Source: Burkholderiales bacterium | GTDB taxonomy: Bacteria > Pseudomonadota > Gammaproteobacteria > Burkholderiales > Burkholderiaceae_E | DNA: 44,837 nucleotides | Assembly (NCBI GenBank): GCA_017307915.1 | Contig: JAFKGG010000377.1 | Span: forward strand, 1 to 44,837 | Reading direction: 5' to 3' | In this document: positions 2,659 through 27,401 of the stretch, in pieces | Numbering within the stretch: the first letter of the stretch is position 1 | Layout: each line of letters begins with the position of its first letter | Position numbers and translations under genes: made by a program | Notes under the pieces: model-generated | Databases searched by the model: none | Seen by the model: only the letters and a program-made list of their open reading frames with translations | Told to the model about the DNA's origin: nothing

Positions 2659-2662
2659 ATCG

Positions 2663-4350: not shown

Positions 4351-4381
4351 AGCGAACGACCGCCCGAAGGCGGCCGTCGCT
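4351..4381 (-). terminator. Intrinsic terminator closing the pil/lipoprotein block
   Basis: On the minus strand the 13-14 bp GC-rich stem has one bulged base and one G-U pair, closes on a stable UUCG tetraloop (4365-4368), and is followed by TTTT. It lies 26 bases after the lipoprotein stop and about 50 bases before the aroK start, separating the two transcription units. Confidence 0.8.
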
Positions 4382-4406
4382 CAGCAGTCGCGGGTGCCGG
4401 GGCTGC

Positions 4407-6155: not shown

Positions 6156-6190
6156 GAGAAATTCTCTAATAATCGGAATCGGTACGAAGC

Positions 6191-9689: not shown

Positions 9690-9693
9690 GGTT

Positions 9694-10365: not shown

Positions 10366-11444
10366 TCGTCGAATCTCCGCATGGCCAGGCCGGTGGCGAT
10401 CAGCAGCGACGGCGCGTCGGCGCGCAACTGCCGCTCACGGATCGATTCAGCCACTTCCATGCCCTGGAACGGGCTGAGGATCTCGGTGGGCACCTGCGTG
10501 CGTTCGGCCACCGCATCGACCAACCCTGACACCACCGACGAGCCGCCGGCCAGGTAGATCTGATCGACGCGCGTATACGGCGTCGACGTGAAAAAGAATT
10601 GCAGCGCGCGGCTGATGTCGGTCGTGCCCTGCTCGATGAACGGCTGCAGCAGGTCGCGCTGATAGTTTTCGGGCAGATCGCCGGTGCGCTTCTTGATTTC
10701 GGCCTCTTCGGGTGTCAACCCGTAAAGCCGCACCAGATCCTGCGTCAACTGCTGGCCGCCGAAGGCCTGCTCGCGTTCGAAGATGGTCTGGCGGTTCAGC
10801 ACCACGGTCAGCGAAGTCGTGCTCTGGCCGATCGAGAACACCGCGATGATCTGGCCCTGTCCGTTGTTGGGCAGAAACTCGGTCACGTGATCGACGGCGG
10901 CGCGCAGCGCATACGGCTCGACATCCATCACGACCGGGCGCAGCCCGGCCATCTCGGCCACCGCCACGCGATCATCGACCTTCTCCTTGCGCGAGGCCGC
11001 CAGCAGCACATCGATCTCGTCGGGCGAATTGGCCGCCGGGCCCAGCAGCTGGAAATCGAGGTTGACCTCGTCGATCGAGAACGGGATATATTGGCTGGCC
11101 TCGGTCTCGACCTGCACTTCGTAGTCTTCTTCGCGCATGCCGGCCGGCAGCATGATCTTCTTGGTGATCACCGCCCCCGAGGGCAGCGCCAGCGCCGCTT
11201 CTTTTGCCCTGCTGTTGCATTTGCGCAGCGCGCGCAGCAGCGCATCGGCCACCGGCTCGGCTTTTTCGATGTTGCCGTCGACGATTGCGCCGCGTTCGAT
11301 CGATTCGATCGCATAGCGCTCCAGACGCATCGGCGTGCGCTGGCCCTTCGTCAGCTCGACGACCTTGACGCTGGACGCGCTCAGATCGATGCCGACCAAG
11401 GGGGGAGCAGCTCGGCGAAAGAGACTCGGGAAACTGACCGCCAC
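10362..11444 (-). CDS. pilM: Type IV pilus cytoplasmic actin-like ATPase PilM
   Basis: The 360-residue FtsA/actin-like protein binds the PilN tail on the cytoplasmic face. Motifs are the N-terminal phosphate-1 loop 'VGIDLSASSVKVVEL', the SHS2-region segment 'ALALPSGAVITKKIMLPAGM', phosphate-2 'IIAVFSIGQSTTSLTV' and the adenosine motif 'IYLAGGSSVVSGLVDAVAER'. Translation starts at a GTG (11444) preceded by a GAGGCG-type ribosome site. It is the first gene of the pil operon and is read away from mrcA across a 362-base spacer. Confidence 0.96.
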   Translation of the reverse strand: MAVSFPSLFRRAAPPLVGIDLSASSVKVVELTKGQRTPMRLERYAIESIERGAIVDGNIEKAEPVADALLRALRKCNSRAKEAALALPSGAVITKKIMLPAGMREEDYEVQVETEASQYIPFSIDEVNLDFQLLGPAANSPDEIDVLLAASRKEKVDDRVAVAEMAGLRPVVMDVEPYALRAAVDHVTEFLPNNGQGQIIAVFSIGQSTTSLTVVLNRQTIFEREQAFGGQQLTQDLVRLYGLTPEEAEIKKRTGDLPENYQRDLLQPFIEQGTTDISRALQFFFTSTPYTRVDQIYLAGGSSVVSGLVDAVAERTQVPTEILSPFQGMEVAESIRERQLRADAPSLLIATGLAMRRFDE

Positions 11445-11806
11445 GAGACGCCTCGAAGGTTAAAAAACCCTTAAAATTTAAGGATTTAGAGCAACTTTAG
11501 ATAATTTGCTTGAGATGCTAGCAACAAGCTCGATTTAATGTAAAGCGTTTTGTGGAAAAGTTCGCAGCCACGCGACTCCTTTTGTCGCATGGCATCGACC
11601 ATCCAGCCGGCGAGCTGAAGGGCAGCACCATGAACGGTTGATCGCGGCCGCCAGCCGGCGGTGCGGCGGGTGCAAGCCGCGGCGCACCGGCCGATAGCCC
11701 GCCGGCGCCCGAGCGATACCCGCGATCGGACCGTGCCGCGGCGGGGCCGGCGGGTCGAACCGTATAGAATCCGGGCACAGCAGCGACGCGGTCACCGGCG
11801 TCGCCG
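11445..11806. promoter_or_regulatory. Divergent pilM/mrcA regulatory spacer
   Basis: This 362-base stretch has no convincing gene. The half next to pilM (about 11458-11560) is strikingly AT-rich for this genome. It contains a 15-bp palindrome at 11469-11483 (CCTTAAA-A-TTTAAGG), 25 bases upstream of the pilM start. On the minus strand that palindrome is followed by TTTTTT, so it could be an operator or a weak attenuator. On the minus strand TTGTTG and TATCTA, 18 bases apart, are a possible promoter for pil. Near mrcA, TATAGAAT at 11763-11770 is a possible -10. The middle is GC-rich and shows nothing clear. Confidence 0.5.
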
Positions 11807-14152
11807 ATGCGCATGAGTCGAACCCAAGCCCGCAGCCGCAAAGCCAAACCACCATCGAACCGCTTCCGCCTGGTCCTGACGCTGGCGGCGATTCCGGTGG
11901 CTGCCTTGCTGTCTGGGCTGCTGTTGATCACGCTGGCACTGGTGCTGGCCAACGACCGGCTGCCGCCGCTCGATGCGCTGATCGATTACCGCCCACGCAT
12001 CGCCCTGCGCGTCTATACCGCCGACGACAAGCTGATCGGTGAATTCGGCGAGGAACGGCGCACCTTCGTGCGCATCGAAGACGTTCCCGACGTCATGAAG
12101 CAGGCGGTGCTGGCCGCCGAAGACACGCGCTTTTTCGACCATATCGGCATCGACCTGAAGGGCGCTCTGCGCGCCTTCGTCGCCAACCTGCTGGCCGGCG
12201 GCACCGAACAGGGCGCCAGCACGATCACCATGCAGCTCGCGCGCGAGTTCTTCCTGTCGCCCGAGCGCACCTATACGCGCAAGATTTCCGAGATCCTGCT
12301 GGCGCTGCGAATCGAAGAAAGCCTGAGCAAGGAACAGATCTTCGAGCTGTATCTGAACCAGATCTATCTAGGCAAGCGCGCCTACGGTTTCGCCGCCGCA
12401 TCGCAAACCTACTTCGGCAAGCCGCTGGCCTCGCTGACGGTGGCCGAGGCGGCGGTGCTGGCCGGCCTGCCGAAGGCGCCGTCGCGCTTCAACCCGATGG
12501 TCAACCCCAAGCGCGCCGTCGAGCGGCAGCGCTACATCCTGCGGCGCATGCACGAGGCCGGCTTTCTCACCGACGACGGCCTGCAGGCCGCGCTCGACCA
12601 GAAGCTGAACTTCGTTCCGCCGCGCGCCGACTACCCGGTACACGCCCCCTACGTCGCCGAACTGGCGCGGCAGTTGGCCTTCGACCTGTATCGAGAAGAG
12701 ATCTATTCAGCGGGACTGAAGGTCTACACGACGATTCGCAGCGACGATCAGCAAGCCGCCAACGCCGCGCTGGAACAGGGCATTCTCGATTACGACCGGC
12801 GCCACGGCTTTCGCGGGCCCGAGCGCATTCTCGACCTGCCGGCCGATCGCACGGCCGCCGAAGAGGCCGTCGATGCGGCGATCGGCGACGGCGACGACAT
12901 CGGCCGCTTCGAAGCCGCCGTGGTGCTGTCGGCCGCGCCGGGCCGCGTAGTGGTCACGCGCGGGCGCGACGCCACTTACGAGATCGGCGCCGAGGGCCTG
13001 AAGTTCGTCGCCAACGCCCTGAGCGAGCGCGCCCCGGCCGCCCAGAAGCTGCGCCGCGGCGCGCTGGTGCGCATCGTGCGCAACGCCAAGGGCCAATACG
13101 AAGTCGGCCAGTTGCCCGAGGTGCAGGCCGCGCTGGTATCGATGAACACGTATGACGGCGCGGTGCGTGCGCTGGTCGGCGGCTTCGATTTCGAGCGCAA
13201 CAAGTTCAACCGCGTCACGCAGGCGTGGCGCCAGCCGGGTTCCAGCTTCAAGCCGTTCATCTATTCGGCGGCGCTGGAAAAAGGCTTCATGACCACCACC
13301 ATCATCAACGACGCGCCGGTGCTGATCGACCCGGCGCGCACCGGTGGCCAGTTGTGGGATCCGAAGAACTACGACGGCAAGTTCGAGGGTCCGATGCGCA
13401 TGCGTACGGCGCTGGCCAAGTCCAAGAACATGGTGTCGGTGCGCATCCTCGATTCGATCGGCACGCAGTATGCGCAGGATTACATCACGCGCTTCGGCTT
13501 CGACGCCGAACGCCACCCGGCGTTCCTGACGATGGCGCTGGGCGCGGGCTCGGTCACGCCGTGGCAAATGGCCGCCGCGATCTCGGTGTTCGCCAACGGC
13601 GGCTACCGGATCGAGCCCTACATCATCGACCGCATCACCGACAACAACGGCCGCGTGCTGGCGCGCGCCCGGCCCGGGCTGGCCGGCACCGAATCACTGC
13701 GCGCCATCGACCGCCGCAACGCGTTCCTGATGGACAGCATGCTGCGCGAAGTGGCGCGCTCGGGCACCGCCGCGCGCGCGCAGGGCACGCTCAAGCGCAG
13801 CGACCTGGCCGGCAAGACCGGCACCACCAACGATTCGTACGATGCCTGGTTCGCCGGTTACCAGCCCAAGATCGCCGCCGTCGCCTGGGTCGGCTACGAC
13901 CAGCCGCGCAAGCTGGGCGACCGCGAAACCGGCGGCGGCCTGGCGCTGCCGATCTGGATCAACTACATGAGCCGCGCGCTGCGCGGCGTGCCCGAGCAGC
14001 CGCTGGAAGTGCCGCCCGGCGTGGTGCAGGTGGGCAGCGACTATTACTACGCCGAGACCCGGCCCGGCCAGGGCGTGGCCTCGCTGGGCGTTTCCGAAGA
14101 CGGCGTGGCCGCCGGCTCGGATGCGGACATGATCCGCGATCAGGTGTTCTGA
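11807..14152 (+). CDS. mrcA: Penicillin-binding protein 1A (bifunctional murein polymerase)
   Basis: The 781-residue class A PBP polymerises and cross-links peptidoglycan. A short basic cytoplasmic tail and one transmembrane helix (about residues 24-48) precede the GT51 glycosyltransferase domain with catalytic Glu in 'AAEDTRFFDHIGID' (Glu105) and 'GASTITMQLAREFF'. An OB-like insert follows, then the transpeptidase domain with SxxK at Ser479/Lys482 ('PGSSFKP'), SxN as SKN at 539-541, and KTGT from Lys670. All catalytic motifs are present. The ATG at 11807 has another in-frame ATG two codons later; neither has a clear ribosome site. Location opposite pilM is the classical ponA/pil arrangement of proteobacteria. 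Confidence 0.97.
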   Translation: MRMSRTQARSRKAKPPSNRFRLVLTLAAIPVAALLSGLLLITLALVLANDRLPPLDALIDYRPRIALRVYTADDKLIGEFGEERRTFVRIEDVPDVMKQAVLAAEDTRFFDHIGIDLKGALRAFVANLLAGGTEQGASTITMQLAREFFLSPERTYTRKISEILLALRIEESLSKEQIFELYLNQIYLGKRAYGFAAASQTYFGKPLASLTVAEAAVLAGLPKAPSRFNPMVNPKRAVERQRYILRRMHEAGFLTDDGLQAALDQKLNFVPPRADYPVHAPYVAELARQLAFDLYREEIYSAGLKVYTTIRSDDQQAANAALEQGILDYDRRHGFRGPERILDLPADRTAAEEAVDAAIGDGDDIGRFEAAVVLSAAPGRVVVTRGRDATYEIGAEGLKFVANALSERAPAAQKLRRGALVRIVRNAKGQYEVGQLPEVQAALVSMNTYDGAVRALVGGFDFERNKFNRVTQAWRQPGSSFKPFIYSAALEKGFMTTTIINDAPVLIDPARTGGQLWDPKNYDGKFEGPMRMRTALAKSKNMVSVRILDSIGTQYAQDYITRFGFDAERHPAFLTMALGAGSVTPWQMAAAISVFANGGYRIEPYIIDRITDNNGRVLARARPGLAGTESLRAIDRRNAFLMDSMLREVARSGTAARAQGTLKRSDLAGKTGTTNDSYDAWFAGYQPKIAAVAWVGYDQPRKLGDRETGGGLALPIWINYMSRALRGVPEQPLEVPPGVVQVGSDYYYAETRPGQGVASLGVSEDGVAAGSDADMIRDQVF

Positions 14153-14828: not shown

Positions 14829-16211
14829 ATGGACGCGTTCACCTACCGCCACGGCGAGCTGCTGGCCGAAGAACTGGCACTGACCGACATCGCCGAGCGC
14901 TTCGGCACGCCCACCTACGTCTATTCGCGCAGCGCCATCGTCGAGGCCTTCAGCGAATTCCAGCGCGCCGCCGCCGGCCGCAAGGTGCTGGTCTGCTATG
15001 CGCTGAAAGCCAACTCCAATCTGGCCGTCATCGACCTGCTGGCACGCCAGGGCGCCGGCTTCGACATCGTCTCGGCCGGCGAATTGCAGCGCGTGCTGGC
15101 CGCCGGCGGCGATCCCGGCAAGACGGTGTTCTCGGGCGTGGGCAAGAGCGAAGCCGAAATGCGCATGGCGCTGCAAGCGGGCGTGCGCTGCTTCAACGTC
15201 GAATCCGAAAGCGAGCTGCACCACCTGAACCGGGTCGCGGCATCGCTGGGCAAGCGCGCACCGGTGTCGCTGCGCGTGAACCCCGACGTCGATGCCGGCA
15301 CGCACCCGTACATCTCCACCGGCCTGCGCGAAAACAAGTTCGGCATCGCGCACGAGGCCGCGCTGGCCGCCTATCGCACGGCCGCCGCGCTGCCCAATCT
15401 GCAAGTGGTCGGCATCGACTGCCACATCGGCTCGCAGATCACCGACACCGCGCCGTTCCTGGCCGCGCTCGACAAAGTGCTCGAACTGGTCGATACGCTG
15501 CACGCCGAAGGCATCGAGCTGCATCACCTCGACCTGGGCGGCGGCCTGGGCATTCGCTACAGCGACGAGACCCCACCATCACGCGCCGCGCTGCTGGCCG
15601 CAGTGTTCGAGCGCTTGCAGCGGCATCCGCGCGGCCAGCAATACGAGCTGCTGTTCGAGTTCGGCCGCTCGATCGTCGGCAACGCCGGCGTGCTGCTCAC
15701 GCGCGTCGAGTATCTGAAGGAAAACGGCGGCCGGCATTTCGCCGTGATCGACGCGGCGATGAACGATCTGATGCGGCCGGCGCTGTATGAGGCTTGGCAT
15801 GAGGTGCTGCCGGTGCGGCAGCCAAATGCAGGTGCTAGTGCTGGTGTTGACAGTGGCAGCACCCGCGCCGGCGGGCACGGCAGCCAGGGCAGCGCATCCC
15901 CGACCGCTCCGACAACCAGCAGCGCGAGCGCCGCCGCGAACACCGCGCAGCCGATCGAAGCCGTCTACGACATCGTCGGCCCAGTCTGCGAATCCGGCGA
16001 CTGGCTGGCGCGCGGCCGCACGCTGGCGCTGGCCGAAGGCGATCTGCTCGCCATCGGCTCGGCCGGCGCCTACGGCATGGCGATGAGCTCGAACTACAAC
16101 ACGCGGCCGCGTGCCGCCGAAGTCATCGTCGACGGCGCGCAGGCGCATCTGGTGCGCGAGCGCGAGTCGATCGAGTCGCTGTTTGCGCTGGAGCGGCCGC
16201 TGCCGCGATAG
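14829..16211 (+). CDS. lysA: Diaminopimelate decarboxylase with a low-complexity insert
   Basis: The 460-residue PLP enzyme of the alanine-racemase fold converts meso-diaminopimelate to L-lysine. The PLP lysine is Lys60 in 'VCYALKANSN'; the phosphate-binding glycines lie in 'HHLDLGGGLGIRYSDE', and the C-terminal active-site segment reads 'DIVGPVCESGDWLARGR'. Residues about 332-375 form a Gly/Ser/Ala/Thr-rich insert between 'EVLPVRQ' and 'IEAVYDIVGP', where most LysA proteins have only a short loop. That adds roughly 35-40 residues to the usual 415-420. The first part of the insert uses more T-ending codons than its surroundings. The last 89 bases overlap the antisense TetR gene. Confidence 0.95.
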   Translation: MDAFTYRHGELLAEELALTDIAERFGTPTYVYSRSAIVEAFSEFQRAAAGRKVLVCYALKANSNLAVIDLLARQGAGFDIVSAGELQRVLAAGGDPGKTVFSGVGKSEAEMRMALQAGVRCFNVESESELHHLNRVAASLGKRAPVSLRVNPDVDAGTHPYISTGLRENKFGIAHEAALAAYRTAAALPNLQVVGIDCHIGSQITDTAPFLAALDKVLELVDTLHAEGIELHHLDLGGGLGIRYSDETPPSRAALLAAVFERLQRHPRGQQYELLFEFGRSIVGNAGVLLTRVEYLKENGGRHFAVIDAAMNDLMRPALYEAWHEVLPVRQPNAGASAGVDSGSTRAGGHGSQGSASPTAPTTSSASAAANTAQPIEAVYDIVGPVCESGDWLARGRTLALAEGDLLAIGSAGAYGMAMSSNYNTRPRAAEVIVDGAQAHLVRERESIESLFALERPLPR

Positions 16212-16986
16212 TTGCGGCGCTCAGCCACCCCTCGAACCCATCGAGCAGCAACGCCAGCCCAGCGCGCAGCGTTGCCTCGGTATCGATCTCGGTGAACGGC
16301 CCGACCAGGAAACGCGCCCCGGTGCAGCTCTCCACCCCGGGCCGGCCCACGTAATTGCGAATGAAGTCGCGATGCAGCACCGGCGTCTGCCGGTGCGCGT
16401 CGGCGCTGCTCACGCCGACCAGGAACAGCATCAGCAGGTGATAGGCCATCGCCGCTTGTGCCGCCGTGAAGCCACCCTGTTCGAGAATGCGGCCGATGCG
16501 GTCGAAGAAAGCCAGGCCCCAGTCGGTTTCGCCCGCCGCCACCTTCTGGAACAGCCGGCTGCGGTTGTGCGTGGCCACGTATGAGGCCACGCCTTTCCAA
16601 CGCAGCATCATCTTGCTGCTGATCAGTGCCACCGCCTCCAGGTCGCGGCGCCAGTCGCCGCTGGGCTGCGGCAGCGCCTCGACGCGCTCGCGATAGGCGA
16701 TGTTGACGATCGTGCTGATCAGTTCGTCGCGGCTGCCGACGTAGTAGTGCACCAGACCCGGCGTAATGCCCAGCTCGCGCGCCAGCCGCACCATCGACAG
16801 CTCGTCGATCGATTCCCGCTGCGCCAGCCGCACCGCGCAGTCGATCACCGCGGCGCGCGACAGTTCCGCCGAGCCGTCGGCATTGCGCGGTCGCCGGCCC
16901 GCGCGGCGCGGCGCGGCGGGGGCAGACGATATCGGAGGAGAAGCGTCGTCGAATCGGGCCATGGCCCAAGGATAGCTCGCCGTCAT
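16123..16986 (-). CDS. TetR/AcrR-family repressor of the adjacent aryl-CoA operon
   Basis: The 287-residue regulator has a disordered N-terminal 40 residues ending in 'RRAGRRPRN', then a TetR DNA-binding domain with helix-turn-helix 'LARELGITPGLVHYYVGSRD' (about residues 68-87), and a helical ligand-binding domain from about 95 to 235. It is divergent from the hydrolase gene across a 76-base spacer that holds two matching palindromes, so local repression with an aromatic acid or CoA ester as inducer is the simplest inference. The last 29 residues (Ala/Arg-rich) are encoded opposite the 3' end of lysA; this tail is not part of the TetR fold. The start could instead be the ATG at 16962; neither has a strong ribosome site. 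Confidence 0.88.
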   Translation of the reverse strand: MTASYPWAMARFDDASPPISSAPAAPRRAGRRPRNADGSAELSRAAVIDCAVRLAQRESIDELSMVRLARELGITPGLVHYYVGSRDELISTIVNIAYRERVEALPQPSGDWRRDLEAVALISSKMMLRWKGVASYVATHNRSRLFQKVAAGETDWGLAFFDRIGRILEQGGFTAAQAAMAYHLLMLFLVGVSSADAHRQTPVLHRDFIRNYVGRPGVESCTGARFLVGPFTEIDTEATLRAGLALLLDGFEGWLSAATIAAAAAPAQTATRSTRARAPDAPARRRR

Positions 16987-16995
16987 TCACTTTTT

Positions 16996-17047
16996 ATTTG
17001 ACACCATCTCAATTAACCTCCAGAATTTATTTGAGACCGCATCAAAT
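16996..17047. promoter_or_regulatory. Tandem operator sites for the TetR regulator
   Basis: Two copies of the same dyad lie in the divergent spacer: ATTTGA-N7-TCAATT at 16996-17014 (one mismatch) and ATTTGA-N7-TCAAAT at 17029-17047 (perfect). They are 33 bp apart, close to three helical turns, so dimers would bind on one face. Flanking bases are also repeated (TTTA before, TTAAC after). The first site covers the -35 of the rightward promoter; the second lies between its -10 and the start codon. Confidence 0.8.
16998..17026 (+). promoter_or_regulatory. Sigma70-type promoter of the aryl-CoA operon
   Basis: A consensus -35 TTGACA (16998-17003) is followed after 17 bases by CAGAAT (17021-17026, four of six matches to TATAAT). 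The start site would fall near 17033, inside the second operator. A ribosome site AAGGA at 17052-17056 sits six bases before the hydrolase ATG at 17063. The geometry fits repression by steric block. Confidence 0.65.
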
Positions 17048-17062
17048 TAACAAGGACGATCG

Positions 17063-18316
17063 ATGAACGCAGCGACAGGCAAGGTGGCCGTCACCGCCGG
17101 ATTGCGCGGTGCCTCGTGGAACGCGCAGCGCATGGCGACGCCCTACACGATGAGGCCGCATGCGCTGGCCACGGCCGACGGCCAGAAGGTGCTGGGCTTT
17201 CTGTTCTCGCGCGGCGGCGAACGCAATGCCGCGTTCCTGATGCACCCGCGCGAGATGGTCGTCACGCATTACATGGTGCCCGACGTGCTCGACGCCGGCT
17301 GGGCCTGCTGGGTGCAGGGCCCGCGTTCGGTGGGCAACGACCTGCGGCTGGAACACGAGATCGCGCTGCACGACGTGGCTGCCGGCATGCAGCGGCTGCG
17401 CGAACTGGACTTTGCGCAGATCGCGATGATCGGCAACAGCGGCGGCGCCGGCCTGCTCAGCTTCTACAACCAGCAGGCGCTGCTGGCGCCCGAGCAGCGG
17501 CTGGCGCGCACGCCCGGCGGCCGCCCGACCGGGCTGGCCACGGCATCGATGCCGGCCCCCGATGCAATGGTGCTGCTGTCGCCGCACCCCGGCCAGGGCG
17601 TGCTGCTGATGAACGGGCTCGACCCTTCGGTCAGCGACGAGAACGATGCGCTATCGGTGGAAACCTCGCTCGACCCTTTCGACCCGGCCAACGGCTTTCG
17701 GCGCCCGCCCGAGTCGTCGTCGTATGCCCCCGACTTCATCGAACGCTATCGCGCGGCGCAGCGCGAACGTTGCGCGCGCATCGATGCGCATGCACGCGAG
17801 CTGCTGGCACGGCGCAACGCGGCCCGCGCACGCTTGAAGAGCGAGCCGAACCGGCAAGACAAGCGCATCGCCAGCCACGCGCCGATCTTCACTGTCTGGC
17901 GCACCGACGCCGACCTGCGCTGCTGGGATACCTCGCTCGATCCGTCGGATCGCCTGGTCGGCTCGCTGTGGGGCGCCGATCCGGCCGTCTCCAATCTGGG
18001 CAGCGTCGGCTTCGGCCGCGTCGTCACGCCCGAGTCGTGGCTGTCGACCTGGTCGGGACTGTCGTCGAATGCGTCGCTGGCCAACTGCGCACCGGCCATC
18101 GAGCAGCCGGCACTGCTGATCGAATACACGGGCGACAACTGCGTATTCCCGTCCGACGTCGATCGCATCTATGCCGACCTGCGCAGCTCGCGCAAACAAC
18201 GCCATCGCGTGCGCGGCAACCACCACGGCATGGCCCTGAGCGCCGAGGAACCGCCGGGACAGATCGAAGCCGGGCGCCTGGTGCAGGCTTGGCTCAACGA
18301 AGTCGCGCCCGGCTAG
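17063..18316 (+). CDS. Alpha/beta hydrolase, first gene of the aryl-CoA operon
   Basis: The 417-residue protein has the nucleophile elbow 'IGNSGGAG' (Ser126), a candidate catalytic Asp358 in 'YTGDNCVFP' and His387 or His388 in 'GNHHGMA', so a complete Ser-Asp-His triad is likely. A long insertion between strands 6 and 8 (about residues 145-325) forms a cap, larger than in simple esterases. No signal peptide is seen, so it is probably cytoplasmic. As the promoter-proximal gene it may release the aromatic acid from an ester or amide, or act on a later ring-cleavage product; the sequence does not decide. I do not recognise a characterised orthologue. Confidence 0.75.
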   Translation: MNAATGKVAVTAGLRGASWNAQRMATPYTMRPHALATADGQKVLGFLFSRGGERNAAFLMHPREMVVTHYMVPDVLDAGWACWVQGPRSVGNDLRLEHEIALHDVAAGMQRLRELDFAQIAMIGNSGGAGLLSFYNQQALLAPEQRLARTPGGRPTGLATASMPAPDAMVLLSPHPGQGVLLMNGLDPSVSDENDALSVETSLDPFDPANGFRRPPESSSYAPDFIERYRAAQRERCARIDAHARELLARRNAARARLKSEPNRQDKRIASHAPIFTVWRTDADLRCWDTSLDPSDRLVGSLWGADPAVSNLGSVGFGRVVTPESWLSTWSGLSSNASLANCAPAIEQPALLIEYTGDNCVFPSDVDRIYADLRSSRKQRHRVRGNHHGMALSAEEPPGQIEAGRLVQAWLNEVAPG

Positions 18317-18446
18317 CGCGCATCGCCCGGCGGCACGTCCCCCGGCCGAGCGTCGACACGCAAGAGCCGGCGCGCGCCGCACGCACCACATACGTACGCT
18401 TCATTTCAACGAGACAGCGGGCCCGACCCGCAGCGAGGAGACCGAC

Positions 18447-19424
18447 ATGAACCGACGCCCGCTTCTGGCGACCGCCCTGGCAGCCGTGCTGCTGGCCTGC
18501 GGCGCCGCGCTGCCTGCCGCAGCGCAGACCTTTCCGTCCAAGCCGATCCAGATGGTCGTGTCAGCGCCGCCGGGCTCGGCGCCCGACGTGATCGCACGGC
18601 TGCTGGCCGACCAGTACCGCACGCGGCTAGGCCAGCCGGTGGTGGTCGAGAACCGCCCCGGCGCCGGCGGCATCATCGCCGTCAACGCGATGAAGGATGC
18701 GCCGACCGACGGCCATCGACTGCTGTTCGCCCAGGCCGCCGTCGCGGTCGTCACGCCGTTCACCTACAAGGAAGCGCGCTACGACATGCTGCGCGATTTC
18801 GAACCCGTGTCGGCGCTGGCCAGCACGCCGATGCTGTTCGTCGCGAACCCGGCGTCGGGCCCCAAGACCTGGCAGGACGCCGTCGAGCAGACCCGCACGC
18901 GGCCGCAGAAGCTGTCGCTGGGCAACCCCACGCGCACTTCGATTCCGCACCTGGCCGGCGAGCTGGTCGATGCACGCAGCGGCGGACGCTTCCAGCACGT
19001 ACCGATGAGCAATACCGGTCAGGGCCTCCAGGCCGTGGTCAACGGCGACACGCAGATGTACGTCGACGGCGTGGCACCGCTGTTGCCGATGGTCAAGGCC
19101 GGCCGCCTGCGCGCGCTGGCCGTCACCGCCGACCGTGAGCTGCCTGGGCTGGAAGGCATCGCACTGGCCAAGAACGTGGTGCCCGGCACGATCGTGTCGG
19201 GCTGGTTCGTGTTGTTCGCGCCCAAGGGCACGCCGCAGCCGGTGCTGGAAAAACTCAACACCGCCGCGCACGAATCCATGCACGCGCCCGAAGTGGTGGC
19301 CAAGATGCGCGAGCTGGGCAACTATCCGATGGGCGGCAGCCTGCACGATGCGCAGACCTTCGTCGCCCGCGAACGCGCAATGTGGTCCGACGTGATCCGG
19401 CGCGCCAATATCGTCGCGGAGTGA
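18447..19424 (+). CDS. Bug-family tripartite tricarboxylate transporter receptor
   Basis: This 325-residue periplasmic binding protein of the TctC/Bug family has a signal peptide ending near 'PAAAQT' (about residue 28). Family features include 'FPSKPIQMVVSAPPGSAPDV', 'GQPVVVENRPGAGGIIAVNA', and 'FAPKGTPQPVLEKLN'. A good ribosome site (GAGGAGA) precedes the ATG. No TctA/TctB membrane genes are nearby, so it is an orphan receptor, as is common in Burkholderiales. It sits between the hydrolase and the aryl-acid ligase, so its ligand is plausibly the same aromatic acid or its precursor; it could also act in sensing. Confidence 0.92.
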   Translation: MNRRPLLATALAAVLLACGAALPAAAQTFPSKPIQMVVSAPPGSAPDVIARLLADQYRTRLGQPVVVENRPGAGGIIAVNAMKDAPTDGHRLLFAQAAVAVVTPFTYKEARYDMLRDFEPVSALASTPMLFVANPASGPKTWQDAVEQTRTRPQKLSLGNPTRTSIPHLAGELVDARSGGRFQHVPMSNTGQGLQAVVNGDTQMYVDGVAPLLPMVKAGRLRALAVTADRELPGLEGIALAKNVVPGTIVSGWFVLFAPKGTPQPVLEKLNTAAHESMHAPEVVAKMRELGNYPMGGSLHDAQTFVARERAMWSDVIRRANIVAE

Positions 19425-19427
19425 GGT

Positions 19428-21149
19428 ATGCGGCACCCCGTTGCCTTGAAGCCGATCGGCGTGCGCGCGCCGATGCCGGGCGTCGTCTATCCGCCTGAAG
19501 CCGCACTGCGCCATTACGTCGAAGCCGGCGCACTCGGCTTCGATACGCTGGCCGACGGCCTGCGTGCGTCGTTCGCGCGAAACGCAGCGCGCATCGCGCT
19601 CGACGGCCCCGGCGGTGCGATCAGCTACGCCCGGCTCGACGCCGATTCGGAACGGCTCGGCGCAGCGCTGCTGCGCCAGGGCCTGGCGCCGCTCGATCGC
19701 GTCGTGTTCCAGATGAACAACGCGTATGAACTGGTCATTCTGTGGGTGGCATGCCTGAAGGCCGGGCTGATCCCGCTGTGCACGCTGGCCGCGCATCGCG
19801 AGCACGAGATCGGCTATCTGGCGCGGCACGGCGAAGCGGTGCTGCACGCGGTGCAGGGCAACGATCCGAAATTCGACGGCATCGCGTTCGCGCGCGCGAT
19901 GCAAGACAAGGTGCCGTCGCTGCGATGGATCCTGCAGACGCAAGGCGAACCTGCGCCCGGCGTGCTGCATCTGCGCACGCTGATCGAATCGATCGATGAA
20001 GAAGACGCCAGGCGCGAACTGAGCGCCGTCGAGCTCGATCCGTTCCAGGTGGCGGTGTTCCAGTTGTCGGGCGGCACCACCGGCGCCCCCAAGATCATTC
20101 CGCGCTTTCACAACGAATACCTGGCGATGATGCAGGGCGTGGCCCGCTTCAACGGCTACCGGCCCGACGACACCGTGTTCATCCCGCTGCCGATGGTGCA
20201 CAACCTGAACATGGGCTGCTTCTTCGGCCCATTCCTGTTGAGCGGTGGCCGCGTGCTGGTGGCGCCCGATCTGCAGCCCGACACGCTGGTGGAGATGATC
20301 AGGCGCTTCACACCGAACTGGCTGGTGCTGGGGCCGCTAGCCGCGCGCATCGAAAGCGCGATCGCCACCGGCGAGCTCGACTTTTCGCACGTGCGCGGCA
20401 TCGTCGCGCCGAACGGTGCGCAGCGGCTGCGCGAACGGCTGAAGACGCCCGCGCTGCACATCTTCGGCATGACCGAAGGCGTGATCATGTTCACGAACCC
20501 GCACGAAGACCCGCTGCCGGCGCAGAACGTCACCGTCGGCCGGCCGATCAGCCCGCTCGATCGCGTGCGCATCCTCAAGCCCGGCACCGAGCAAGATGCC
20601 GCGCCCGGCGAAGACGGCGAGCCGGCGTTCCAGGGGCCGTACACGATCCACGGCTACTACCGCGCCGAGGAACGCAATCGCGAAGCCTTCACGTCCGACG
20701 GCTTCTATCGCTCGGGCGACCTGATGCGCAGCGTGACGATCGAAGGCCGCACCTACTACGAGTTTCGCGGTCGGCTAAAGGACGTGGTCGATCGCGGCGG
20801 CGAAAAGATCAACTGCGAAGAGATCGAGTGGCTGCTGGTGCGGCACCCGTCGGTGGCCGCGGTGGCCGTGGTCGGCATGCCCGATCCGATCTACGGCGAG
20901 CGGCTGTGCGCCTGCGTGATTCCAGTGGCCGGCCGGACCGCACCCAGCGTCACCGAATTCGGCACGTTCCTGCACGAGCAGGGCGTGGCCAAGTTCAAGT
21001 GGCCCGAACGCGTCGAAGCGATGACCGAGTTCCCGTCGACGCAATCGGGCAAGTTGAGCAAACCCTTGCTGAAGCAGTGGGTCGCCGAACGCCTGCAAGG
21101 CGAACGCGCGGCCGCGCCGCGGCAATCAACCGACGAGAAGGCACGATGA
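19428..21149 (+). CDS. EntE/DhbE-like aryl-acid adenylating enzyme or aryl-CoA ligase
   Basis: The 573-residue ANL-superfamily enzyme activates a carboxylic acid with ATP and then probably transfers it to CoA. The phosphate loop is 'SGGTTGAPKIIPR' (from Ser214), the adenine motif region is 'LHIFGMTEGVIMFTN', the ribose-binding Asp is in 'GFYRSGDLM', and hinge and catalytic motifs are 'RLKDVVDRGGEKINCEEIE' and 'QSGKLSKP'. The sequence resembles the 2,3-dihydroxybenzoate/salicylate-AMP ligase branch, including a His-Asn pair (His258-Asn259 in 'PMVHNLNMG') at the place where EntE/DhbE contact ring-acid oxygens. This favours an ortho-hydroxy or ortho-amino benzoate. No carrier-protein gene is nearby and a CoA-ester hydroxylase and thioesterase follow, so CoA is the likely acceptor. 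It follows Bug after three bases. Confidence 0.85.
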   Translation: MRHPVALKPIGVRAPMPGVVYPPEAALRHYVEAGALGFDTLADGLRASFARNAARIALDGPGGAISYARLDADSERLGAALLRQGLAPLDRVVFQMNNAYELVILWVACLKAGLIPLCTLAAHREHEIGYLARHGEAVLHAVQGNDPKFDGIAFARAMQDKVPSLRWILQTQGEPAPGVLHLRTLIESIDEEDARRELSAVELDPFQVAVFQLSGGTTGAPKIIPRFHNEYLAMMQGVARFNGYRPDDTVFIPLPMVHNLNMGCFFGPFLLSGGRVLVAPDLQPDTLVEMIRRFTPNWLVLGPLAARIESAIATGELDFSHVRGIVAPNGAQRLRERLKTPALHIFGMTEGVIMFTNPHEDPLPAQNVTVGRPISPLDRVRILKPGTEQDAAPGEDGEPAFQGPYTIHGYYRAEERNREAFTSDGFYRSGDLMRSVTIEGRTYYEFRGRLKDVVDRGGEKINCEEIEWLLVRHPSVAAVAVVGMPDPIYGERLCACVIPVAGRTAPSVTEFGTFLHEQGVAKFKWPERVEAMTEFPSTQSGKLSKPLLKQWVAERLQGERAAAPRQSTDEKAR

Positions 21150-22039
21150 ACACGACGACCGCAACACCCGCCATGCACCTGAACGGCGTGCATCACACCG
21201 CACGCCCCACCTGGAAACTGCGCGAGACGGTGGAGTTCTATCGCGACGTGCTGGGCCTGCCGATGGTGCACGCCATTTCGGCGCGCGGCTGGGGGCCCGA
21301 CAATCACCCCGACTTCCTGCATTTCTTCTTCGACAGCGGCAACGGCAGCACGATCGCGTTCTTCTATTACATCGGCGCCGAGCAGCCCGACTACACGCAT
21401 CCGCAAAACGACTACCGCTCGCGCGCCACGCACACCGCATGGGCCGTGCAATCGACCGACGAACTCGACGCCTGGCGCGAACGCCTCGAGGCCAAGGGCG
21501 TGCCGATCAAGTACCGACTGCGCCACGAGCTGATCGAATCGATCTACTTCAACGACCCGAACGGCTATCCGATCGAGATCACGCTGCAACTGCGGCCGAT
21601 GAACGCGCTCGACGCCACCGATGCCGCGAATACGCTGCAAGCGGCCATCGCGCTGGAAGACGCGCAGCACGCCGGCCGCGAGCGCTTCACGTCGATCGAC
21701 CAGGTCTGGCAGCGCAAGGCCGCTGCGCTAGCGCCGAACGAACCCGGCCGAACCGGCCAGGGCAAGCAAGCCAATCAGGCCGGCCTGGCTGTTCTGAACG
21801 TGCTCGAGGTGCCCGAGTTCGAGCCGATCGTCGCCGCCTTGCGCCGCGATCCGCGCTGCACCGTCGACGGCCCGCATGGCGGCTACTGGCGCATCGCTTC
21901 CAAAGAGGCCATCGTGTTCGAGCGCAAGGCGCTGGGGCTGGTACCGGCGCTGTGGAACGCGGCGCTGACCGGCGGCTTCGAAGGCCGCGTCGTCAGCTTC
22001 GATCGCAACACGCTCGAGCTGCGCCCGGAGGTTGCCTGA
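21146..22039 (+). CDS. VOC (glyoxalase/extradiol-type) protein with a C-terminal extension
   Basis: The 297-residue protein starts at 21146, overlapping the ligase stop (ATGA). Residues about 12-150 form one vicinal-oxygen-chelate module: 'GVHHTARP', 'FYRDVLGLPM', 'HTAWAV' and 'DPNGYPIEIT'. Likely metal ligands are His16 or His17, His96 and Glu144. After an Ala/Gln-rich linker, residues about 205-297 form a second small domain ('LNVLEVPEFEPIVAALRRD') that I do not recognise. VOC proteins include extradiol dioxygenases, isomerases and glyoxalases. Placement between the ligase and the aryl-CoA hydroxylase makes a ring-modifying or ring-cleaving role attractive, but that is inference. Confidence 0.75.
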   Translation: MNTTTATPAMHLNGVHHTARPTWKLRETVEFYRDVLGLPMVHAISARGWGPDNHPDFLHFFFDSGNGSTIAFFYYIGAEQPDYTHPQNDYRSRATHTAWAVQSTDELDAWRERLEAKGVPIKYRLRHELIESIYFNDPNGYPIEITLQLRPMNALDATDAANTLQAAIALEDAQHAGRERFTSIDQVWQRKAAALAPNEPGRTGQGKQANQAGLAVLNVLEVPEFEPIVAALRRDPRCTVDGPHGGYWRIASKEAIVFERKALGLVPALWNAALTGGFEGRVVSFDRNTLELRPEVA

Positions 22040-23205
22040 TGAAGATCGCAATCATCGGCGGTGGCCCCTCGGGGCTGTACCTGGGCATCCTGCTGAAACG
22101 GCGCGCACCCGACTGGCAGGTCGAAGTGGTCGAGCAGAACGCTGCCGACGCCACCTTCGGCTTCGGCGTAGTGCTGGCCGATACCGGCCTGCAGCAATTG
22201 CGGCACGCCGACGAAGCCTCGTATCAGGCGATGACCGCCGCGATGCACTACAACGACCGACAGACGATCGTTCACAACGAAACACCGATCGAAGTGGCGC
22301 GGCAGGTCAAGGGCGGCGCGATCGAGCGGCTGCGGCTGCTCTCGATTCTGCAAGCGCAGGCCGATGCAGCCGGTGTTCGCACCCATTTCGGCTGCCGCAT
22401 CGGCATGGTGGCCGAGCTGGCACGCATCGGCCTGGCCGATGCCGACGTGGTGGTGGGCGCCGACGGCGTCAACTCGACGCTGCGCGGCGAGTTCGCCGAA
22501 CAGTTCGGCACCACGCGCCGCTCGCTGACCAATCACTTCGCCTGGTACGGCACGCACCATGTGTTCGATTCGCCGGCGCTGGTATTCCGCAAGCACGCCG
22601 GCGGCCATTTCGTCGCGCACTACTATCCCTACTCGGCAACGATGAGCACTTTCGTGGCCGAATGCGACGACGCCACCTGGCAGCGCTGCGGGCTGGCCGA
22701 AATGAGCGACGACGAACGCCAGCGATTCTTCGAGAATCTGTATGCGCCCGAGCTATACGGCAAGCCGCTGCTGTCGAACAACTCGGTATGGCGGCAGTTT
22801 CCGGTGATCCGCAATGCACACTGGTTCCACGACCGCTACGTGCTGATCGGCGACGCACTGGCCAGCGCGCATTTCTCGATCGGCTCGGGCACGCGCATCG
22901 CGATGACCGACGCGATCGCACTGGCCGAGGCGCTGCTGGCCGAAGCGCCGAACGTCTCGGCCGCGCTGCACCGCTACCAGGAACGGCACACTCCCGAAAA
23001 GCGCAAGCTGATCGAAGCCTCGGAGCACTCGTTCGACTGGTACGAGCGCATCGCCGAGTGGATGGAGCGCTACACGCCCGAGGCCTTCGTCTACCACTTC
23101 ATGACGCGCACCGGCCGCGTCGATGACGCGCGGCTGCGCCGCGCTTTTCCCGAGCTGATGAAGCGGCTGGAAGCAGCCGGCGTGCCCAGCGGGGCCGGCG
23201 CATGA
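22039..23205 (+). CDS. FAD-dependent aryl-CoA hydroxylase (salicylyl-CoA 5-hydroxylase / 2-aminobenzoyl-CoA monooxygenase type)
   Basis: The 388-residue single-component flavoprotein has an N-terminal Rossmann motif 'MKIAIIGGGPSGLYLG', 'VVVGADGVNSTLR' and the FAD ribityl-binding block 'VLIGDALASAHFSIGSGTRI'. 'EVVEQNAADATFGFGVVLAD' and 'WYGTHHVFDS' are typical of the branch holding salicylyl-CoA 5-hydroxylase, the monooxygenase half of 2-aminobenzoyl-CoA monooxygenase/reductase, and VioD. It lacks the fused reductase half of the 2-aminobenzoyl-CoA enzyme (about 770 residues), so simple hydroxylation of the CoA ester is more likely than dearomatisation. The start overlaps the VOC stop by one base (TGATG), indicating tight coupling. 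Confidence 0.85.
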   Translation: MKIAIIGGGPSGLYLGILLKRRAPDWQVEVVEQNAADATFGFGVVLADTGLQQLRHADEASYQAMTAAMHYNDRQTIVHNETPIEVARQVKGGAIERLRLLSILQAQADAAGVRTHFGCRIGMVAELARIGLADADVVVGADGVNSTLRGEFAEQFGTTRRSLTNHFAWYGTHHVFDSPALVFRKHAGGHFVAHYYPYSATMSTFVAECDDATWQRCGLAEMSDDERQRFFENLYAPELYGKPLLSNNSVWRQFPVIRNAHWFHDRYVLIGDALASAHFSIGSGTRIAMTDAIALAEALLAEAPNVSAALHRYQERHTPEKRKLIEASEHSFDWYERIAEWMERYTPEAFVYHFMTRTGRVDDARLRRAFPELMKRLEAAGVPSGAGA

Positions 23206-23648
23206 ACGAAAGCTGCGAGATCGTCGTGGCCGATGCGCCGTTCACGGTGCGCCGCCGCGTGCGCTGGAGCGACTGCGACCCGGCCGGCGTGGCGTTCACC
23301 GGGCGCTTCACCGACTACCTGCTCGGCGCCGTCGACCACTTCATACGGCACATCTTGCACGAGCCGCGCGCCGCGTTCATGGCCCGGCTGGGCATCGAAA
23401 CGCCGTGCAAGGGCATGTCGCTGAATTTCCATTTGGCGCTGCCCCCCGAGGCGGAAGTCGACATCGTCTTGTGGGTGGCGCGCATCGGCACGCACAGCTT
23501 CGACCTGGACGCCACCGCCCGGCTGCCCGACGGCCGCATCGCGTTCGAAGGACGCTTTTCGCCGATCTGCATCCAGACGCAACCGCGGCACAAGGTGCCG
23601 ATTCCGCCGGCATTGCGCGAACGGCTCGCACTGCATACCAGCCGCTAA
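23202..23648 (+). CDS. 4-hydroxybenzoyl-CoA-type hot-dog thioesterase
   Basis: The 148-residue single hot-dog protein carries 'WSDCDPAGVAF', matching the active-site helix of the Pseudomonas 4-hydroxybenzoyl-CoA thioesterase; Asp26 corresponds to that enzyme's catalytic Asp17. It should hydrolyse an aromatic CoA ester, here most simply the hydroxylated product of the preceding monooxygenase. The start overlaps the hydroxylase stop (ATGA), and it is the last gene of the operon, 13 bases from the convergent oxoprolinase. The usual family length is 135-150 residues, so it is intact. Confidence 0.9.
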   Translation: MNESCEIVVADAPFTVRRRVRWSDCDPAGVAFTGRFTDYLLGAVDHFIRHILHEPRAAFMARLGIETPCKGMSLNFHLALPPEAEVDIVLWVARIGTHSFDLDATARLPDGRIAFEGRFSPICIQTQPRHKVPIPPALRERLALHTSR

Positions 23649-23661
23649 GGCACGTCAGGCA

Positions 23662-26600
23662 TCACTGCAGCGAGCCGAACCCGCCGCCCCCTGGGGTCTC
23701 GATGACGAACACGTCGCCGGGCGCCAGCTCGGCGCGATCGGCGTGGCGCAGATGCTGCACGCTGCCGTCGCCGCGCTCCACACGCGCCGCCGCCGGCGCG
23801 CCGTTGCCGCCGCCGGCGGCGCCGAACGCCGGATGAATGAAACCGTTGGCGAGGATCGACGCCGTCATGGTCTCCAGGAATCGCACGCGCCGCACACCGC
23901 CGTCGCCACCCTGCCAGCGCCCGACGCCACCCGAACCGGCGCGGATTTCATAGCTTTCCAGCCGCACCGGAAAACGCGCCTCCAGAATTTCGGGATCGGT
24001 GAGCCGCGAATTGGTCATATGCGTCTGCACCACCGACGTGCCATCGAAGCCGCCGATCAAGCGGCCGTGTTCATCGAACACGCCGCCGGCGCCCGAACCG
24101 CCCGAAACGGTTTCGTAATACTGGTTGCGCGCATTGCCGAACGTGAAGTTGCTCATCGTCGGCGGCCCGGAGGCCATCACGCCGAGCGCTCCATACAGGC
24201 AGTTGGTGATGCACATCGAGGTCTCGACGTTGCCGGCCACCACTGCCGCCGGGTGGCGCGGATTGAGCATCGAGCCTTCGGGCACGATCACGTCAAGCGG
24301 TTTCAGGCACCCCGCATTCATCGGAATCTCATCATCGACCAGCGTGCGGAACACGTACAGCACTGCCGCCATCGTCACCGCCAGCGGCGCGTTGAAGTTG
24401 TTCGGCTGCTGCGCTGAAGTGCCGCTGAAATCGATCCGCGCGCGGCGCCGCGCAGGGTCGACATCGATGCGCACGCGGATCGTCGCGCCGTTGTCCAGCG
24501 GCAGCGCAAATTCGCCGTTCTTCAATGCGCCGATCACGCGCTTGACCGATGCCTCGGCATTGTCCTGCACGTGCCGCATGTAGGCACGTACCACGTCGAG
24601 CCCGAACTGCGCCACCATCTTGCCCAGTTCTTCACGGCCTTTCTCGTTGGCGGCGATCTGCGCACGCAGGTCGGCCAGGTTCTGCTCGGGCTTGCGCGCC
24701 GGGTGGCGCGCCGACGCAAGCGCCGCGCGCAGCTCGGCTTCGCGCAGGCGGCCGTGCTCGATGAGCTTGAAGTCGGTGAGCAGCACGCCTTCATCGTCGA
24801 TATGGCGGCTGTCGGGCGGCATCGAGCCCGGCGTGATGCCGCCCACGTCGGCATGGTGGCCGCGCGAGCCGACATAGAACAGAATCTCACGCCCCGCCTC
24901 GTCGAACACCGGCGTGATCACCGTGACGTCCGGCAGATGCGTGCCGCCGGCATAGGGGTCGTTCAGCACGTAGACCTCGCCGGGCTTCAGCGGGTCGGCA
25001 CTGCCGGGCGCATGCGCATCGATCACCGCGCGCACGCTGGCGCCCATCGAACCCAGATGCACCGGCATGTGCGGCGCGTTGGCCACCAGCGCGCCATCGG
25101 CATCGAACACCGCGCAAGAGAAATCCAGCCGTTCCTTGATGTTGACCGAATGCGCGGTGTTCTGCAGCCGGTAGCCCATCTGCTCGGCCACCGACATGAA
25201 CAGGTTGTTGAAGATCTCCAGCATCACCGGGTCGGCATCGGTGCCCATCGCGTGGCGCTGCGGCCGCGGCAGATGGCGTTGCAGCACCAGGTCGCCGCGC
25301 ACGCTCATCTGCGCGCGCCAGCCGGGTTCGATGACGGTGGTGGCGGTGGCCTCGGCAACGATCGCCGGACCATCGATGGTGTCGCCGGCGGTCATCTCGT
25401 CGCGGCGATACAGCGGCGTATCGTGCCAGCGGTCCTGCGCATGCATGCGCACGTGCGTAGCCGGCAGCAGCGGCCCGCTGCGCTGCGCCGGCGCGGCCAG
25501 CTCGGCGCCGGCGCCCGAAGCGCCGAGCGCCTCGACCACGGCCGATTCGATGACCAGCGCGCGATCGGGCATCAGGAACGCGAAGCGCTGGCGGTAAGCG
25601 GCTTCGAAGGCGGCGCGCATCGTGGCCTGCGCATCGCCGGCCGCCGCATCGCCGGCCGCCGCAACGTCGAACGCCGCGGCGCCTTCGACGAAATCGACCG
25701 CCAACGCCGTATCGGTGCCCTCGTAGCGCAGATGCACGCGCCACCGCACCCGCAGCGCGTTCGCCGCCTCACCCTGCGCCAGCAGCTCCGCGCATGCCGC
25801 TGCCTGCAACTCGTCGAGCACGCGCCGCACTTCGATCAACCCGTCGGCGTCGAAGCGCCGCTCGATCGAGCGCTCACGCATCGCCGTCTGCTCGGCCAAC
25901 CCCATGCCGTAGGCCGACAGCACGCCGGCCAGCGGGTGCGCCAGCGCGCGCGGCATGGCCAGCGAATCGGCCACGCCGCAGGCATGCTGGCCGCCGGCGC
26001 CGCCGAAGGTGGTCAGCGTATAGCGCGTGACGTCATAGCCGCGCTGCACCGAGATCTTCTTGATCGCATTGGCCATGTTGGCCACCGCGATGTCGACGAA
26101 GCCTTGCGCCACTGCTTCAGGCGTCATCGCGCGGCCGGTGTCGGCAGCGATGCGCGCGGCCAGTTCAGTGAAACGCTGCCGCACGATCGCGTCATCGAGC
26201 GGTTCATCGCCGCGCGGCCCGAACACCGCCGGAAAGAACGCCGGCTGGATCTTGCCCAGCATCACGTTGGCATCGGTCACCGTCAGCGGCCCGCCGCGCC
26301 GATAGCAGGCCGGGCCCGGATCGGCGCCGGCCGAATCGGGCCCCACACGCATGCGCGCGCCGTCGAAATGCAGGATCGAACCGCCGCCGGCGGCCACCGT
26401 ATGGATGCTCATCATCGGCGCGCGCATGCGCACGCCGGCCACCAGCGTGTCGAACTCGCGTTCGAATTCGCCGGCATGATGCGACACGTCGGTCGAGGTG
26501 CCGCCCATGTCGAAGCCGATCACGCGATCGAAACCGGCGGCGCTGCTCACCCGCGCCATGCCGACGATGCCGCCGGCCGGTCCCGACAGGATCGAATCCT

Positions 26601-27354
26601 TGCCCTGGAACACCTGCGCGTCGGTCAGCCCGCCATTGGACTGCATGAACTGCAGCCGCACGCCGTTCAGCGAAGCCGCCACGCGCTCGACATAACGGCG
26701 CAGCACCGGCGACAGATACGCATCGACCACCGTGGTGTCGCCGCGCGCCACGAAACGGATCAGCGGCGATACCTGATGCGACACCGATATCTGCGTGAAG
26801 CCGATGCCGCGCGCGATCGCCGCCACGCGCTGCTCGTGATCGGTGTAGCGATAACCATGCATCAGCACGATGGCCACCGCGCGCAACCCCGCATCGAAGG
26901 CACGCTCGAGCGCCGCGCGCGTGGCCGCTTCATCCAGCGGCCGTACGACGCTGCCGTCGGCCCCCAAGCGCTCGTCGACCTCGATCACGTCGCGATACAG
27001 CAGCTCGGGCAGCACGATGTGACGCTCGAACAGCTTCGGCCGGTTCTGATAAGCGATACGCAAGGCATCGCGAAAGCCGCGCGTCACGGCCAGCACCAGC
27101 GGCTCGCCCTTGCGTTCGAGCAGCGCATTGGTGGCCACCGTGGTGCCCATCTTCACGACCTCGACCTGCGCGGCGTCGATCGGCTGGCCGGCTTGCAGAC
27201 CGAGCAGCCGGCGAATGCCTTCGACGGCGGCGTCTTCGTAATGGCCGGGGTTTTCCGACAGCAGCTTGGCCGTGCTCAGCGTGCCGTCGGGCCGGCGCGC
27301 CACGATGTCGGTGAACGTGCCGCCGCGATCGATCCAGAATTGCCAACCCGCCAT
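23662..27354 (-). CDS. oplA: Fused 5-oxoprolinase (hydantoinase A/B family)
   Basis: The 1230-residue protein fuses HyuA- and HyuB-type domains. The HyuA half begins '[20 protein letters not shown]' and contains the nucleotide-binding blocks '[13 protein letters not shown]', '[14 protein letters not shown]' and '[20 protein letters not shown]'. The HyuB half begins near residue 700 ('[18 protein letters not shown]') and holds '[20 protein letters not shown]' and the Gly-rich end '[12 protein letters not shown]'. Fused proteins of this size are usually ATP-dependent 5-oxoprolinases (5-oxo-L-proline to glutamate), though related enzymes act on other cyclic amides. It converges with the aryl-CoA operon, and nothing shows that the two are functionally linked. 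Confidence 0.9.
25631..25660. repeat. Perfect 15-bp tandem duplication inside the oxoprolinase gene
   Basis: The unit GCATCGCCGGCCGCC occurs twice head to tail (25631-25645, 25646-25660). In frame it produces repeated GDAAA-type residues around position 570 of the protein, in an Ala-rich loop of the HyuA half. The length is a multiple of three, so the frame is kept. It looks like recent slippage and could vary between strains. Confidence 0.85.
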
Positions 27355-27401
27355 TGCGCCCTCGCCTTGCCTCGTTCGCCTTGCCCATCAGCCGCGCGGC
27401 G

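Follow-up and report, generated by a model that had tools for sequence, protein, structure and literature searches.

What opens the aromatic ring in a salicylate-type degradation operon that carries no cupin dioxygenase? The question is raised by an operon of a Burkholderiales bacterium (assembly GCA_017307915.1, contig JAFKGG010000377.1), located in a stretch of 44,837 nucleotides that was analysed as a whole and is called the window here. The first-pass annotation had placed a VOC protein in the ring-opener's position, and the list of open reading frames and the Pfam matches agree with it: a VOC gene is present, and no cupin gene occurs among the genes of the operon. Judged from sequence, this compact and widely conserved operon probably serves to activate salicylate with coenzyme A (CoA), to hydroxylate it and to cleave its ring, with maleate and pyruvate as products and a ring-opening enzyme whose fold is not the textbook one.

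The proposed route draws on the observed gene content, its conservation, a metal-site pattern, predicted folds and a genomic tie to maleate isomerase. A Bug receptor would bind the acid outside the cell, an EntE-like ligase would convert salicylate into salicylyl-CoA, a flavin adenine dinucleotide (FAD) hydroxylase would place a hydroxyl group on C5 of the CoA ester, and a hotdog thioesterase would release gentisate. The VOC protein, as a metal dioxygenase, would convert gentisate into maleylpyruvate, which an alpha/beta hydrolase would split into maleate and pyruvate; a maleate cis-trans isomerase, found in many related clusters and elsewhere in the host genome, would turn maleate into fumarate. 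With good though incomplete confidence, we infer all these substrates and reactions for a TetR-controlled and horizontally acquired operon that converts salicylate completely to central metabolites.

Gene content and the proposed aryl-CoA front end

The locus consists of seven genes, whose order, divergent regulator and overlaps of one to four bases had been correctly described. A TetR-family regulator (16123-16986, minus strand) diverges from the alpha/beta hydrolase (ABH; 17063-18316, on the plus strand like all the following), which precedes a Bug/TctC periplasmic solute receptor (18447-19424; Pfam TctC PF03401) and the EntE-like aryl-acid ligase (19428-21149; Pfam AMP-binding), a member of the salicylate/dihydroxybenzoate (DHB)-AMP ligase family proposed to be a salicylate:CoA ligase. 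These are followed by the VOC-fold protein (21146-22039; Pfam Glyoxalase), the candidate gentisate ring-opening dioxygenase, the salicylyl-CoA 5-hydroxylase-like FAD enzyme (22039-23205; Pfam FAD_binding_3) and the hotdog acyl-CoA thioesterase of the 4HBT type (23202-23648; Pfam 4HBT_2). According to the coordinates, the ligase/VOC, VOC/hydroxylase and hydroxylase/thioesterase overlaps measure 4, 1 and 4 bases. All genes except ABH, six of the seven, exceed Pfam family cut-offs.

The sequences of three enzymes lend support to the first-pass reading, in which a salicylate-type acid is activated, hydroxylated and released. The best solved relatives of the ligase are salicylate- and DHB-AMP ligases (5wm2 first), and a His-Asn motif is kept in 84 of 84 aligned ligases, including the second copy of the host at C149. 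One pocket position of these 84 is occupied by Cys in 45 (the window and Cupriavidus metallidurans CH34 among them), by Tyr in 37, and by Val and Ile in one each. According to work on DhbE, this position tells salicylate from dihydroxybenzoate enzymes, and the acid activated by ligases of the Tyr clade may be another one. The hydroxylase has its best NCBIfam match in the N-terminal half of PRK08255 (salicylyl-CoA 5-hydroxylase/oxidoreductase), with 329 bits, below a cut-off of 1078 that is set for the 768-residue fusion; the oxidoreductase half is missing from the window protein. The thioesterase contains a DCDPAG motif.

This front end is of a known kind. In the Sdg route of Streptomyces sp. 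WA46, salicylyl-CoA is reportedly converted to gentisyl-CoA, and ring opening falls to SdgD, a distinct gentisate dioxygenase. The Sdg type would share with the window operon the CoA ligase, the salicylyl-CoA 5-hydroxylase and the release of gentisate, but it relies on the separate SdgD, whereas the window type holds the VOC protein, the alpha/beta hydrolase and often the maleate isomerase alongside the upper genes. The excerpts available of two papers both name SdgC, in a CoA-mediated gentisate route with sdgC in Massilia (PMC13215587) and together with nag genes in a strain that does not grow on salicylate (PMC6460240); these excerpts make no mention of a VOC enzyme or a maleate isomerase. 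Of the combination, which the first-pass annotation did not recognise as described, the upper route is known; its union with a putative ring-opening VOC protein, a putative hydrolase for C-C cleavage and a maleate isomerase was not found in the literature searched, where the gene set was not recognised in any title or abstract of the openly licensed PMC papers covered.

The VOC protein, the hydrolase and maleate

Recurrence of the operon was assessed from its VOC gene. A profile of the protein gave 391 coding stretches in 84,980 species genomes, of which the best 80, with seven plasmid loci and the window, form a set of 88 loci (numbered with L where single ones are meant); cluster genes were scored by tblastn within 8 kb of the VOC gene, and some loci stop at contig edges. 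As the loci were picked by VOC similarity, the counts describe close relatives of the VOC protein, not all bacteria. The ligase is present in 88/88 loci, the hydrolase in 86 (in L015 and L080 it lies beyond that distance), the hydroxylase in 84, the thioesterase in 62, a maleate cis-trans isomerase of the Asp/Glu-racemase family in 57, a TetR gene resembling that of the window in 42 and TctC in 31. These counts bear out the co-conservation of the ligase, VOC and hydroxylase genes. The cluster genes are found together in many Proteobacteria, and partially in two Rhodococcus loci, a recurrence which argues that the operon is more than a chance arrangement. A betaproteobacterial metagenome-assembled genome (L064) has the gene order of the window (TetR-hydrolase-TctC-ligase-VOC-hydroxylase-thioesterase), followed by a racemase-family gene.

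The clusters closest to the window (L018-L026) often have a thiolase added downstream (Pfam, L018 and L023); in this range, six Pseudomonas loci also have an SMP-30-type lactonase (Pfam, L023) and a FadL-type gene (Pfam, L026). A possible role of these genes is the funnelling of side-chain or lactone compounds, of the coumarin type, into salicylyl-CoA.

The model of the VOC protein (mean predicted local distance difference test, pLDDT, 89.6; predicted template modelling score, pTM, 0.87) displays one VOC domain followed by two helices, and its listed strands read as a C-terminal β-α-β-β-β half-module. Tistrella, Pseudosulfitobacter and Rhodococcus encode this half-module in a small overlapping gene of its own; in the window it is fused. 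Residues H17, H96 and E144 are invariant in 47 VOC sequences, align with H, H and E of the solved structure 9u42 and are likely metal ligands. Pfam, the predicted fold and the invariant H-H-E residues agree on a VOC fold with a 2-His-1-carboxylate pattern, and TIGR02272, the profile of cupin gentisate 1,2-dioxygenase, is not among the NCBIfam matches of the protein. The nearest solved relative by sequence (26% identity), and the first by Foldseek E-value, is 9u42 from Acinetobacter, in whose deposition the molecule is named Glyoxalase and the entry titled Homogentisate 1,2-dioxygenase; in the Foldseek ranking, a BphC-type extradiol dioxygenase comes second and 3oaj, the structure of MhqO, sixth. 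These VOC-fold dioxygenases have the fold and the H-H-E pattern in common with the window protein, which differs from 9u42 in its low identity, its poor superposition and its extra half-module.

The alpha/beta hydrolase is less easily classified. ABH has 417 residues and a model (mean pLDDT 88.2, pTM 0.90) with an alpha/beta hydrolase fold, and it finds no match in Pfam or NCBIfam (E <= 0.001) or among PDB sequences (E <= 0.1). S126, D358 and H387 do not vary across 40 sequences and likely form the catalytic triad. We propose that ABH is a maleylpyruvate (ring-fission product) hydrolase, in keeping with its pairing with VOC. When a hydrolase profile was run against 399 genomes of the order, at least 19 places were found at E <= 1e-40; with the best 4 hydrolase, 9 VOC and 10 isomerase candidates scored per genome, all place counts are lower bounds. 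Three of the 19 are close relatives, each beside a VOC gene. At seven of the 16 distant places a VOC-family gene overlaps the hydrolase, lies beside it or is found within 2 kb (in two of the seven with an AMP-binding gene some kilobases off), and no hydroxylase orthologue was detected at any of the 16 (best 33 bits). Across 155 kb not chosen for either gene (six sister regions plus the window), the VOC profile gave no match besides the VOC gene of the window. The hydrolase travels with VOC more than with the hydroxylase, the pattern that a reaction following ring opening would be expected to show. The supply of the substrate, which the first-pass annotation had assigned to the hydrolase, finds no support in view of this pairing, ABH being as constant as VOC and beside it at the seven distant loci.

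Further pairs are present in the host. At L115 (C149, about 736-12531) a second, divergent hydrolase-VOC pair lies beside a PRK07538-type FAD monooxygenase; a ligase of the Tyr type and the large subunits of two Rieske oxygenases (benzoate-like and AndAc-like, both below cut-offs) are encoded nearby. At L117 (C208, 6446-10324) and L166 (C188, 6479-10307), distant hydrolase and VOC genes stand near each other, adjoined by flavocytochrome c-like and PRK08132-type flavoprotein genes. The hydrolase-VOC pair may serve several ring-opening pathways.

In the classical gentisate lower pathway (nag genes), ring opening by the cupin gentisate 1,2-dioxygenase is followed by maleylpyruvate isomerase and fumarylpyruvate hydrolase. 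The window operon would share with it the proposed intermediate and the end products fumarate and pyruvate; it differs in having no cupin and in the proposed isomerisation, which would come after C-C cleavage, not before. Direct hydrolysis of the gentisate ring-fission product yields maleate and pyruvate. The maleate isomerase, which completes the cluster at the 57 loci mentioned above, lay beyond the view of the first-pass annotation and is absent from the window copy. That of the L013 cluster matches the solved maleate isomerase 4fq7 with 283 bits (E 1.9e-83). In a sample of 249 genomes taken evenly across the Burkholderiaceae, the family of Cupriavidus laharis, the VOC gene (E <= 1e-60) is present in 35 and the isomerase (E <= 1e-50) in 87; the latter occurs in 35/35 VOC-positive genomes versus 52/214 VOC-negative ones. 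The VOC-negative set includes very small genomes, so genome size may account for some of this contrast. At 35 of 37 VOC places the isomerase is 10 kb away or less. This tie points to maleate as a product.

Maleate is also the end point of the 2,5-dihydroxypyridine route, and many isomerases of VOC-negative genomes probably stem from nicotinate clusters. The nicotinate lower pathway employs an alpha/beta hydrolase and a maleate isomerase (NicD/NicE), and the window type shares with it a hydrolase acting, as proposed, on the ring-fission product and the isomerase. By contrast, no 2,5-dihydroxypyridine dioxygenase or maleamate amidase was recognised in the window operon, which has an aryl-CoA front end instead. 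Two neighbourhoods may be recorded here. In a Candidimonas cluster (L053) a fumarase/aspartase-family gene (4850-6244; Pfam Lyase_1, FumaraseC_C) stands just before the hydrolase, which would fit fumarate as a product. One host isomerase, at L165 (C134, 1542-7226), adjoins an amidohydrolase-2 gene, with a gene like 3-hydroxybenzoate 6-monooxygenase, below the cut-off of that family, nearby.

A phenotype is available for Cupriavidus metallidurans CH34, in which all six cluster genes are located on the megaplasmid (L011), the only replicon searched for TIGR02272 and without a match. The part of the CH34 study available reports growth on salicylate (+++) and none on anthranilate, lists ten central pathways among which gentisate is not included, and states that none of the described salicylate pathways had orthologues that its authors could find (PMC8879955). 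We are inclined to think that a further structural class of gentisate dioxygenases, with the VOC fold, acts together with the ABH family outside Pfam and with maleate isomerase, and that the three form a complete alternative to the known gentisate lower pathway, which is joined to a CoA-dependent salicylate upper pathway, has spread through Burkholderiales and other bacteria, and constitutes the missing salicylate pathway of C. metallidurans.

Competing explanations

A number of observations weigh against this proposal. The title of 9u42 is the depositors' own, and the literature search found no paper on the structure. Its superposition on the VOC model is poor (TM 0.24/0.39, root-mean-square deviation 17.7 Å), so that the link between the two proteins rests on sequence. 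Methylmalonyl-CoA epimerases give a better superposition (target TM up to 0.67) and stand, with glyoxalase I and FosA/FosB, in the same match lists; fold alone leaves the VOC function unfixed. By fold, ABH comes closest to esterases, lipases and thioesterases, a comparison which left its role undecided, and 9/16 distant hydrolases have no VOC gene near. The isomerase is absent within 8 kb in 31/88 loci, and the window cluster has none within this distance of VOC. In favour of the proposal, copies elsewhere were found in 24/24 genomes behind the 25 loci followed up of these 31, in at least two (L035, L040) through a second cluster (L094, L092). The host genome holds two copies elsewhere (63-65% identity), and is one of only 4/150 genomes of its order with the isomerase. 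A last point against it is that CH34 also grows on 3-hydroxybenzoate and other acids; the same absence of known genes is stated, in the part of the CH34 study seen, for 3-hydroxybenzoate and six further compounds, which means that the phenotype does not single out the cluster (PMC8879955).

A cupin enzyme encoded elsewhere has to be added to these points. The TIGR02272 profile was searched in 50 genomes behind the 80 best loci, with the proviso that genes can be missing from draft assemblies, and scored above cut-off in 34 and below it, or not at all, in 16. The host has one such dioxygenase above cut-off at C45 (526 bits), besides five weaker cupin-related loci (four full-length, one in two pieces), so that the VOC protein could be redundant there; in hosts with the cupin enzyme it is not a strict necessity. 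The operon might then stop at gentisate and leave the ring to this enzyme, with an accessory role (binding, epimerisation or detoxification) for the VOC protein, while the hydrolase, whose fold suits an esterase, would free salicylate from an ester. We hold this to be unlikely. Eight of the 50 genomes have no TIGR02272 match at E <= 0.001, and six of these (L022, L023, L025, L044, L051, L052) hold all six cluster genes, the isomerase being not nearby in the remaining two. Moreover, a maleate isomerase tied to the cluster would be superfluous in the usual fumarylpyruvate route, and the hydrolase pairs with VOC where the hydroxylase orthologue is missing.

The same chemistry could also serve another substrate, a substituted salicylate, 3-hydroxypicolinate or anthranilate, mainly in the second ligase clade, where this idea overlaps with the proposed route. 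It is a tentative possibility, favoured by Tyr in place of Cys in 37/84 ligase pockets and by the thiolase and some lactonase-like and FadL-like genes near window-like clusters, which hint that some hosts deal with side chains or lactones. The window ligase, however, has the salicylate-type residue, maleate as the product fits unsubstituted gentisate, and CH34, with the same residue pattern, grows on salicylate; the absence of CH34 growth on anthranilate, reported in the same excerpt, speaks against that substrate (PMC8879955). Opening of the ring as the CoA ester, the thioesterase being an editing enzyme or a late step, appears improbable. It would agree with the 26/88 loci that have no recognised thioesterase within 8 kb (in L080 one lies farther out), which also count against the proposed route, and with the presence of methylmalonyl-CoA epimerase, a CoA-ester enzyme, among VOC folds. 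Chemical reasoning indicates that an alpha-keto thioester would remain, and small thioesterases easily escape tblastn or come from elsewhere. Siderophore-type aryl-AMP biosynthesis, suggested by the nearest relatives of the ligase, is very hard to credit and was rejected: no carrier protein, non-ribosomal peptide synthetase or isochorismatase is found among the operon genes (open reading frames and Pfam), which instead include the hydroxylase, the thioesterase and VOC, joined by a maleate isomerase in relatives. The transporter beside L088 finds its closest match among aromatic acid/H+ symporters (TIGR00895, 372 bits, below the cut-off of 419), which likewise speaks for degradation.

Regulation, origin and wider meaning

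The regulator (Pfam TetR_N PF00440, PF02909) faces ABH across a gap with two putative operators of the form TTGA-N7-TCAA, at 16998-17012 and at 17031-17045, the latter within a longer palindrome (17029-17047). These operator-like palindromes are consistent with the TetR control assumed in the first-pass annotation. Eighteen relatives with TetR beside the hydrolase were looked at, L022 being skipped for distance. At least one match is present in the gap of 15 of the 17 scanned; L064 shows N8 in place of N7, and in L083 the palindrome is absent.

The operon is part of an inserted island (16212-27401) between lysA and a ferric-reductase-like (msrQ-type) gene, recognised by comparison with congeners. 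Besides the operon, the island carries a hydantoinase A/B fusion of the hydantoinase/oxoprolinase family (23662-27354, minus strand, opposite to the operon; Pfam), and L018 and L019 have a distant oxoprolinase-family relative (28% identity) just after the cluster. Of 12 congeners searched for lysA, 11 gave a match and six were examined at the locus, with flanking genes identified by Pfam. In all six, lysA is directly followed by the ferric-reductase-like and molybdopterin-type genes, which are probably msrQ and msrP. About 11 kb separates lysA from the msrQ-type gene in the window, and this contrast with the direct adjacency in congeners indicates that the operon arrived as an island. The TetR reading frame extends 89 bases (16123-16211) past the junction and ends in the antisense strand of the lysA end, likely a trace of the insertion.

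If the proposed route is true, it would provide a testable gene set for the growth of CH34 on salicylate, for which the part of its study seen gives no known genes (PMC8879955). The cluster may also explain the salicylate growth of some bacteria in which no known pathway is present. A non-cupin fold would be added to gentisate-type ring opening, and families annotated merely as VOC protein, hypothetical protein or alpha/beta hydrolase would receive names. Salicylate is a plant defence hormone, and the identity of its consumers in soil therefore matters for the root microbiota.

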